A stretch of 64,000 bases of DNA, from assembly GCA_025056255.1 (NCBI GenBank), contig JANWVT010000001.1:124001-188000 (forward strand), read 5' to 3'. Below, piece after piece: positions 8,561-20,088 of the stretch. This DNA is from Bernardetiaceae bacterium. GTDB taxonomy: Bacteria; Bacteroidota; Bacteroidia; Cytophagales; Thermoflexibacteraceae. The translations under genes were made by a program, and so were the position numbers. Each line of letters opens with the position of its first letter. Positions within the stretch are counted from its first letter, which is position 1. The notes below the pieces were generated by a model, which was not told where the DNA came from, did not search any database, and saw only the letters and a program-made list of their open reading frames with translations.

Positions 8561-8594
8561 CAGAGAAAGAAAAGAAAATTAGGTGAGGAAAAAA

Positions 8595-8683
8595 GCAAGC
8601 CAAGTATTGCACCGCTACAACCGCTTACCTTTGCTACCTTCCGGTCCTGGAGGGGTTTGCAGGAGCTGGTCATACCGGCTTGC
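8595..8683 (-). ncRNA. ffs: Signal recognition particle RNA, small bacterial (4.5S) type
   Basis: On the minus strand the core CAGGACCGGAAGGTAGCA is the SRP helix-8 signature with the GGAA tetraloop bound by Ffh. The ends close by pairing of gcaagcc (minus 5' end, plus 8677-8683) with ggcttgc (plus 8595-8601), giving an RNA near 89 nt. A run of six T follows on the minus strand, so this stem also acts as terminator. The promoter at 8688-8717 places transcription start at the predicted 5' end. Confidence 0.92.
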
Positions 8684-8687
8684 ACCA

Positions 8688-8717
8688 CAAAAATACGGAC
8701 AAATTTGTCAGTTCCAA
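8688..8717 (-). promoter_or_regulatory. Promoter of the SRP RNA gene
   Basis: On the minus strand: TTG (plus 8715-8717), 19 bp, then TATTTTTG (plus 8688-8695). This is a full Bacteroidetes TTG-N17..23-TAnnTTTG promoter, about 5 nt from the predicted RNA start. Confidence 0.75.
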
Positions 8718-19574: not shown

Positions 19575-19599
19575 AAAAAAGACGCGCAAAGCGCGTCTT
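19575..19599 (-). terminator. Terminator of the tRNA-like transcription unit
   Basis: 9-bp GC-rich stem aagacgcgc/gcgcgtctt with loop aaa. On the minus strand it is followed by six T. It lies 48 nt after the 3' end of the first tRNA-like copy. Confidence 0.7.
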
Positions 19600-19647
19600 C
19601 TTTAAACCTTAACCAATAAACAACACATAAAATAAACACATGCTTTG

Positions 19648-19805
19648 CTGTAGGGGAAGGATTCGAACCTTCACGGGGTCGTTAGGCAACTACAAAGAAA
19701 ATAAGAGGAAGCGACTGTTCATGATTTTATTTTCTCTGTAGGCTTTATCCGAAACTCCCCACCCCCGAGACAGGAGGGCATGGCTGCCAGTTTCATCACC
19801 CTACA
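19648..19805 (-). tRNA. tRNA-like RNA, GUC anticodon, variable region about 89 nt (copy 1)
   Basis: Minus strand 158 nt. Acceptor TGTAGGG pairs with CCCTACA (7 bp), discriminator G. The D arm is ATG/CAT with loop AAACTGGCAGC, as in leucine tRNAs. The anticodon arm is CCCTC-CTGTCTC-GGGGG, with U33, G34 U35 C36 and C38. The T arm is GAAGG-TTCGAAT-CCTTC. Between the anticodon and T arms lies a variable region of about 89 nt, closed by GGGG/CCCC, containing a 15-bp hairpin with one G.U pair (CTACAGAGAAAATAA with TTATTTTCTTTGTAG). CCA is not encoded, as for the ordinary tRNAs here. U37 is unusual. Not a tmRNA (it has full D and anticodon arms) and not a standard isoacceptor. May be non-translational or a divergent aspartate-type tRNA; function unknown. 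Confidence 0.7.
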
Positions 19806-19892
19806 TTATAAAGTTTTTAATGAATACGACTTATATTAAAAACTTTTGAATTATTTTGCCCCTAAAAGGCTAAAATCAAAGAACTTTCAAAG

Positions 19893-20036
19893 CTGTAGGG
19901 GAAGGATTCGAACCTTCACGGGGTTGTTAGGCACAGAAGAAAGTGAAGCAAGTGATTGTTTCACACTCTCAGGCTTTATCCGAAACTCCCCACCCCCGAG
20001 ACAGGAGGGCATGGCTGCCAGTTTCATCACCCTACA
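19893..20036 (-). tRNA. tRNA-like RNA, GUC anticodon, variable region about 75 nt (copy 2)
   Basis: Minus strand 144 nt, paralogue of copy 1. The first 66 nt (5' half through the anticodon arm and variable-arm base) are identical in both copies, and the last 41 nt differ at one position. The middle differs completely in sequence, yet still pairs: GAGA(gt)GTGAA with TTCAC-TTTC, 9 bp with a 2-nt bulge. Acceptor, D, anticodon and T arms are as in copy 1. It lies first in the unit, directly behind a good promoter, with 87 nt to copy 1. I infer co-transcription and processing of both from one transcript. Confidence 0.7.
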
Positions 20037-20055
20037 TGGTAGTTGTTTGATGTAG

Positions 20056-20088
20056 CAAAATTACAATAAACGAAAACAATATTGCAAA
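20056..20088 (-). promoter_or_regulatory. Promoter of the tRNA-like unit
   Basis: On the minus strand TTTG (plus 20085-20088), 21 bp after its TTG, then TAATTTTG (plus 20056-20063), matching the Bacteroidetes consensus. Predicted start is near 20049, 13 nt before the first tRNA-like RNA. The region also separates it from the divergent Lrp/AsnC gene. Confidence 0.7.

Follow-up and report, generated by a model that had tools for sequence, protein, structure and literature searches.

Two adjacent RNA genes of a Bernardetiaceae bacterium have all the arms of a tRNA, and the question they raise is what such RNAs are used for. The genes lie on the minus strand of the window, by which the whole analysed stretch of 64,000 nucleotides is meant (contig JANWVT010000001.1, positions 124,001 to 188,000). 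A sequence-only reading had described two RNAs of 144 and 158 nt with acceptor, D, anticodon-type and T arms, which is confirmed in the sequence, and the variable regions of 75 and 89 nt are as it stated. It had left the function unknown; because the RNA co-occurs with gatB and with an AsnC-like regulator, the function can now be narrowed.

Two tRNA-like genes in one unit

The arms consist of an acceptor stem of 7 bp, a D stem of 3 bp, an anticodon-type stem of 5 bp with a 7-nt loop and a T stem of 5 bp. Both copies form one unit between a promoter-like site of the Bacteroidota type and a terminator-like hairpin (Table 1). We take TTTG - 21 nt - TAATTTTG to be a candidate promoter of this type. 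The promoter and terminator proposed earlier are visible in the sequence but were reported by neither automated scan: the terminator scan gave 0 terminators, and the promoter scan, which covers sigma-70 sites only, gave one site elsewhere, against 1.7 in shuffles.

Table 1. Features of the tRNA-like RNA locus, in window positions
Feature	Position	Strand	Remark
tRNA-like RNA copy A, 144 nt	19893-20036	minus	G73 at 19893, C74 at 19892; 141.7 bits, model R1
tRNA-like RNA copy B, 158 nt	19648-19805	minus	G73 at 19648, C74 at 19647; 135.7 bits, model R1
Anticodon-type loop of copy A, CUGUCUC, positions 32-38	19998-20004	minus	
Anticodon-type loop of copy B, CUGUCUC	19767-19773	minus	
Variable domain of copy A, 75 nt	19918-19992	minus	
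Variable domain of copy B, 89 nt	19673-19761	minus	
Promoter-like site, TTTG - 21 nt - TAATTTTG	20056-20088	minus	read by eye in the sequence
Terminator-like hairpin, then T's	19575-19599	minus	read by eye in the sequence
Divergent Lrp/AsnC-family regulator gene, 160 aa	20171-20653	plus	134 bp from the RNA 5' end

ARAGORN calls neither copy as a tRNA, and Rfam has no match over threshold at either, its tRNA model reaching 14 bits in a partial match against a cut-off of 29. An ordinary tRNA-Asp gene is found in the window by ARAGORN. Rfam also places a small SRP RNA of the Bacteroidales type on the minus strand (8589-8692, 71.1 bits). Folding of the single sequences is modestly better than that of shuffles (z -1.3 for copy A and -2.4 for copy B); 21 of 200 shuffles fold as well as copy A and 6 of 200 as well as copy B.

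Structure and conserved bases of the RNA class

Compensatory pairing in homologues, on which the sequence-only reading had been staked beforehand, was found: in 33 aligned relatives (824 cells, 99.4% paired) 15 of the 25 pairs are changed on both sides. None of 500 shuffled alignments scored as high on any of five measures, and the observed values are also far above slid controls, a comparison that leans in favour of the structure because it was drawn from the same 33 sequences. Beside the cloverleaf, the alignment supports a basal stem of 4 bp in the variable domain. The earlier description as a processed, structured RNA class holds for the structure, but the processing we infer.

Bases were counted in 217 instances, which represent 204 distinct RNAs from 153 loci, in a loop frame set by stem pairing alone. 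The set excludes hits cut by a contig end (L055, L066 and L175), hits below 60 bits and duplicate entries for one place (L071, L073, L081, L089, L090, L092, L094, L099 and L277). At the acceptor end G2-C71, G73 and C74 are found in all 204 distinct RNAs and U1-A72 in 203; the remaining one has A1-A72, hence the AspRS-type pair G1-C72 is absent. The loop bases U35, C36 and C38 are each invariant (204/204). Position 34 is G in 174, A in 25, C in 3 and U in 2 of these RNAs, and position 32 is C in 176 and U in 28. Position 33 is U in 160, G in 27, A in 9 and C in 8, so that U33 is missing in 44, and position 37 is U in 185, C in 14 and G in 5, never A and a purine in only 5 of 204. The pattern of the scan that found 79 of the 153 loci contained loop letters; the other 74 loci give a like result. 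In the 111 distinct RNAs from these pattern-free loci, U35, C36, C38, G73, C74 and U1-A72 are all present in 111 of 111, G34 in 93 and U33 in 81.

All 37 ordinary tRNAs of the window genome have U33 and a purine at 37; their genes include C74 in 36 of 37 and the full CCA in only 4, and the first base is U in tRNA-Asn and tRNA-Gln only. The RNA class shares with tRNAs the cloverleaf arms, the GG of the D loop, a UUCRA-type T loop and a C74 usually lacking the full CCA; its D arm is like that of tRNA-Leu, its loop like that of tRNA-Asp and its acceptor end like that of tRNA-Asn. Across the 33 aligned sequences the 7-bp acceptor, the 5-bp anticodon stem with 7-nt loop and the 5-bp T stem are those of an elongator tRNA. 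Unlike in elongator tRNAs, U33 and a purine at 37 are not kept and the variable region can be as short as 7 nt or as long as 130 nt (median 75), and the window copies are missed by the tRNA searches given above. The 3' hallmark of tRNA genes is thus retained in the RNA, whereas features that a tRNA needs for work on the ribosome are lost, and the anticodon-type loop is not a decoding loop. The invariant C74 suggests a tRNA-type maturation.

The main aspartate determinants are G34, U35, C36, C38 and G73 in the available part of PMC9976931, which also gives bacterial tRNA-Asp as strictly G1-C72 and describes that pair as crucial for identity. U1-A72 is the pair recognised by bacterial GatCAB, according to the available parts of PMC9976931 and PMC4206432. 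The bases of the RNA are kept where AspRS and GatCAB read a tRNA, and not where the ribosome does.

The long variable arm had been regarded as the hallmark of these RNAs; its size was given correctly, but the invariant bases sit in the anticodon-type loop and the acceptor end. In genome G023 a 76-nt form (71.9 bits) has almost no variable region and a changed anticodon-type stem, and it retains the loop CUAUCUC, G73, C74 and U1-A72. We take this form to be a natural deletion, from which it follows that the variable arm is not the core of the RNA.

Several further features were observed. CUAA is found near the basal stem of the variable region in 195 of 204 distinct RNAs. A C at position -1 occurs in 80 of 182, and an extra C-1:G73 pair is possible in some. 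The motif GUUGACCAC is present in 40 of 182 distinct RNAs (for example in L005, L015 and L020) and lies in the variable domain in those aligned. The variable domain also has an internal-loop motif, ANAAA / CUAAC (alignment A1, columns 58-64 and 131-136), with a covarying closing pair (C-G 16, G-C 7, U-A 5); it looks like a binding or tertiary-contact site. The T stem has an insertion of one or two bases, unusual for a tRNA, in L048, L053, L060 and L064. A pseudoknot between loop positions 34-38 and GGGAU in the arm was rejected, since position 34 and the arm base show no convincing covariation and the arm is missing in G023.

Distribution and comparison with known RNAs

With copy A as blastn query a match was obtained in 41 of 59 genomes, its own included. 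The covariance-model search over Bacteroidota that had been suggested found the RNA in 40 of 395 phylum genomes (model R1; 87-142 bits, at least 108 nt). A second group of R1 hits has at most 66 bits and about 82-87 nt and resembles ordinary class II tRNAs; five low-scoring hits checked with ARAGORN are tRNA-Leu, and the raw tally of 372 of 395 genomes is not counted as positive. The threshold of at least 85 bits was set after the gap had been seen (87.6 is the lowest kept, followed by 71.9 in G023 and then 64.6), and absences refer to an R1 search in which 8 candidates were scored in each genome. Of 119 genomes from another class of the phylum, 4 have the RNA. A pattern scan of titled genomes gave at least 119 stretches, and the 80 listed comprise Cytophagales, including Hymenobacter, Dyadobacter, Algoriphagus, Cyclobacterium, Pontibacter and Spirosoma, as well as Saprospiraceae, Chitinophaga and MAGs that are unclassified or carry other labels. 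Multiple copies, from two to six, occur at 51 of the 153 loci. Six tandem copies, four of them nearly identical, are found in genome G044 (L045, 8831-9935). Phages and plasmids gave no match to the RNA.

YrlA, a bacterial Y RNA, is a tRNA mimic and like the present class a non-coding RNA with a tRNA-like fold. A YrlA/Ro60 system was rejected, with 0 TROVE matches in the window's own genome and no Rfam match. The tmRNA has a T arm and a tRNA-like acceptor end in common with the class; it was rejected as the D stem and anticodon-type arm are complete here, ARAGORN finds no tmRNA in the window and Rfam none. Allo-tRNA and tRNA-Sec are likewise non-standard tRNAs with longer variable arms. Acceptor and T stems are 8/4 or 9/3 in allo-tRNAs. 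They are 7/5 in the RNA described here, which has no UCA anticodon, and both identities were rejected; the acceptor-T branch of tRNA-Sec is 13 bp in the available part of PMC7609411. The earlier judgement that tmRNA, tRNA-Sec and allo-tRNA do not fit is borne out by the arm lengths, ARAGORN and Rfam.

The class is absent from Rfam and seemingly undescribed; no description was found in the open-access literature among the matches listed. No described RNA combining these features was found, and tRNA mimicry itself is a known theme.

The AsnC-like regulator

The divergent gene in the window encodes a protein with AsnC_trans_reg and HTH_AsnC-type domains (Pfam). Its best PDB relative is E. coli AsnC (2cg4, E 1.5e-31), and its best NCBIfam model is AsnC with 157.3 bits, below the equivalog cut-off of 227 bits. 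Among the first context loci an Lrp/AsnC-family regulator was found in 28 of 40, head-to-head in all 22 that were measurable. In the extended set it is head-to-head with the RNA in 82 of 139 loci at 121-346 bp, 51 loci having none and 6 no room; four locus pairs are the same place in two collections, and without the repeats the count is 81 of 135. The regulator subfamily (at least 177.9 bits, the next best being 157.8) is present in 44 of 395 genomes, including 40 of the 40 with the RNA, also where the two are unlinked (for example G045). The neighbours of unlinked RNAs vary. Genomes G060, G177 and G411 keep the regulator, with RNA and gatB absent and no RNA near the regulator; G411 was counted as lacking gatB because the list of 332 positives does not include it.

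A SufB gene (identified in one member of a cluster found in 31 loci) lies beside the AsnC-like regulator, for example in L042 (6053-8304), and so does a SufC-like ABC ATPase gene (cluster in 16 loci). Counting words upstream of the RNAs, in 82 linked and 56 unlinked regions, turned up nothing but AT-rich words, the most notable being the palindrome AAATATTT. It was found in 26 of 82 linked regions against 7.1 in shuffles and in 22 of 56 unlinked regions against 3.4 (4- to 6-fold). The palindrome may be an operator, but no claim is made, because the counts of other AT words in shuffles were higher.

Co-occurrence with gatB

A search for gatB was prompted by the agreement of the loop and acceptor bases with the aspartate identity set and with the acceptor pair of GatCAB. 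GatCAB was scored by gatB alone, at E below 1e-140, a cut-off chosen afterwards. In the window's class (98 of the 395 genomes) 38 genomes have RNA and gatB, 0 the RNA only, 1 gatB only and 59 neither, G023 being counted as positive for the RNA. The association has a Fisher p of 1.8e-26 with phylogeny ignored, and phylogeny inflates co-occurrence. With the curated gatB cut-off the table becomes 38/0/3/57 (Fisher 4.9e-24), G209 and G255 being RNA-negative with a divergent gatB (E about 1e-105) above that cut-off. The sole gatB-only genome at E below 1e-140, G099, falls below the GlnRS cut-off and would therefore need GatCAB for Gln-tRNA.

Among the 39 tested class genomes with GlnRS, gatB is present in 34 of 34 with the RNA and in 0 of 5 without it. 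Ten genomes with the RNA are below the GlnRS cut-off, where GatCAB has an ordinary use. The families f23 and f24 hold both states, and RNA and gatB change together in them, the joint absences being only few events. The RNA, gatB and the regulator are all absent from G075 and G170. Four relatives, G007, G013, G014 and G017, have gatB, no blastn hit to the RNA and no GlnRS over cut-off, a pattern that fits the link between GatCAB and the RNA. G005, with the RNA by blastn and no gatB hit in an assembly 89% complete, does not fit it. Outside the window's class gatB is almost ubiquitous among the sampled genomes of the phylum, which leaves the co-occurrence test with little power.

The window genome has GlnRS (755.6 bits), AsnRS (617 bits) and gatB (523 bits), and its AspRS is of the bacterial type with a GAD domain. 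Having both GlnRS and AsnRS, it should therefore not need GatCAB. AsnRS is over the cut-off in 17 of 19 relatives tested. The AsnB family has a match in 394 of 395 genomes, 229 of them over cut-off, and is present in the window genome; the RNA is therefore not needed to supply asparagine there, and a role as substitute for asparagine synthetase was ruled out for this genome. According to the available part of PMC4206432, GatCAB may persist in bacteria that have AsnRS, GlnRS and an asparagine synthetase, and its retention is called 'maybe vestigial'.

The gatB neighbourhoods of 14 loci have no neighbour common to more than 3, and in the 8 of these loci that were scanned for the RNA none was found. 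A protein of about 380 aa adjoins gatB in G014, G015 and G017. In G007 (contig C6; L286, 4635-9424) gatA is followed by one ORF of 1112 aa that fuses GatB to a bacterial-type AspRS, with the Pfam domains GatB_N, GatB_Yqey, tRNA-synt_2 and GAD. Judged by its domains, the fusion would be an enzyme with aspartyl transamidation built in; L286, like the whole genome by blastn, has no hit to the RNA. G209 and G255 have a gatB score similar to that of the fusion, and their family is otherwise without gatB in its sampled members; their divergent gatB genes are possibly further fusions.

Discussion

The RNA class with its structure and conserved bases, its synteny and its co-occurrence with gatB and the regulator are established. 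We propose that the RNA is a non-decoding tRNA-like RNA that is charged by AspRS and amidated to asparagine by GatCAB off the ribosome, under an AsnC-like regulator, and give the whole proposal a probability of about 0.5. The RNA would be cut and tailed like a tRNA, with C74 in the gene and the CCA completed afterwards. AspRS would recognise it via G73, U35, C36, C38 and mostly G34 and load aspartate, which GatCAB, guided by U1-A72, would amidate to asparagine on the RNA. Up to leaving the synthetase the RNA would work like a tRNA. The charged RNA would then stay off the ribosome because the loop has no conserved U33 or purine at 37, and might serve asparagine or aspartate metabolism or sensing. 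This use is a guess, and sensing of the asparagine supply is suggested because the regulator is AsnC-like. The regulator, usually head-to-head, would set the RNA level. The nearest known chemistry is tRNA-dependent asparagine synthesis, in which AspRS and GatCAB act on tRNA-Asn (PMC4206432, available part) and U1-A72 is likewise required, but the proposed acceptor is a non-decoding RNA and not tRNA-Asn.

The weak point of the proposal is the missing G1-C72, and charging may be weak or absent. With this pair lacking, the RNA might be charged slowly, be served by an AspRS adapted to it, or act as a decoy. G34, found in 174 of 204, is not universal, a further point against the proposal.

A decoy or regulator that binds AspRS, GatCAB or both via the mimicked elements, stays uncharged and tunes their activity is rather unlikely. 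The same conserved elements would explain it, and with U1-A72 in place of G1-C72 the RNA would be more apt to bind than to be charged efficiently. Precedents are the tRNA-like leaders of the thrS and yeast AspRS mRNAs (PMC9976931, available part), in which an anticodon-loop mimic is likewise read by a synthetase; unlike these, the RNAs described here are free genes, often arrayed, with acceptor and T arms. However, the C74 and tRNA-type 3' end, found in 204 of 204, suggest some importance of the CCA end, and a decoy for AspRS alone would not need a GatCAB-type acceptor pair. It is unlikely that the co-occurrence reflects shared ancestry only, GatCAB serving tRNA-Asn via a non-discriminating AspRS and the RNA having another role. 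Bdellovibrio does so with AsnRS, GlnRS and one AspRS (PMC4206432, available part), the tRNA-Asn of the window begins with U and the distribution is clade-structured, but RNA, gatB and regulator are all missing from two genomes of an otherwise positive family (G075 and G170), and RNA and gatB are missing together from three f23 genomes.

The variable arm gives rise to two other explanations. The tRNA fold might be a stable chassis for a base-pairing small RNA that targets mRNAs with its long arm and is controlled by the neighbouring regulator, which is very unlikely: the regulator gene is divergent, the arm differs between the paralogues and 51 of 153 loci hold 2-6 copies, but the invariant bases are outside the arm, and the nearly armless form in G023 keeps its loop and acceptor end. 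GcvA and GcvB are reportedly an analogous case of a regulator controlling a small RNA. The same armless form stands against the idea that SerRS or LeuRS charges the RNA, as a class II tRNA, by way of its long arm. SerRS and LeuRS ignore the anticodon, yet the loop bases are invariant, and G73 argues against charging by LeuRS, the five tRNA-Leu of the window genome having A73. This explanation is highly improbable, although the arm is long, the D arm is of the leucine type by eye in comparison with the window-genome tRNAs and G73 is found in three tRNA-Ser of that genome. That the RNA reads Asp codons or a recoding signal as a decoding tRNA is barely conceivable; the triplet has U35 and C36 in all and G34 in 174 of 204, but U33 is missing in 44 of 204, A37 is never found, the variable region reaches 130 nt and a normal tRNA-Asp is already present in the window.

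The proposal of AspRS charging and GatCAB amidation can be extended to the phylum: many Bacteroidota would use a dedicated non-decoding RNA for asparagine formation by these two enzymes, under an AsnC-like regulator, a statement that we hold tentatively, as quite possible and short of probable. The class is a widespread one without an Rfam entry that was missed by ARAGORN in the window. If the proposal is true, the RNA would be a third class of GatCAB substrate beside tRNA-Asn and tRNA-Gln, and would explain why GatCAB is kept despite GlnRS and AsnRS, the latter demonstrated in the window genome. The proposal gives a definite reason for the retention of GatCAB in bacteria with AsnRS, GlnRS and asparagine synthetase. 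Should charging be confirmed, a non-coding RNA dedicated to aminoacyl chemistry would represent a new mode of amino-acid metabolism or sensing.
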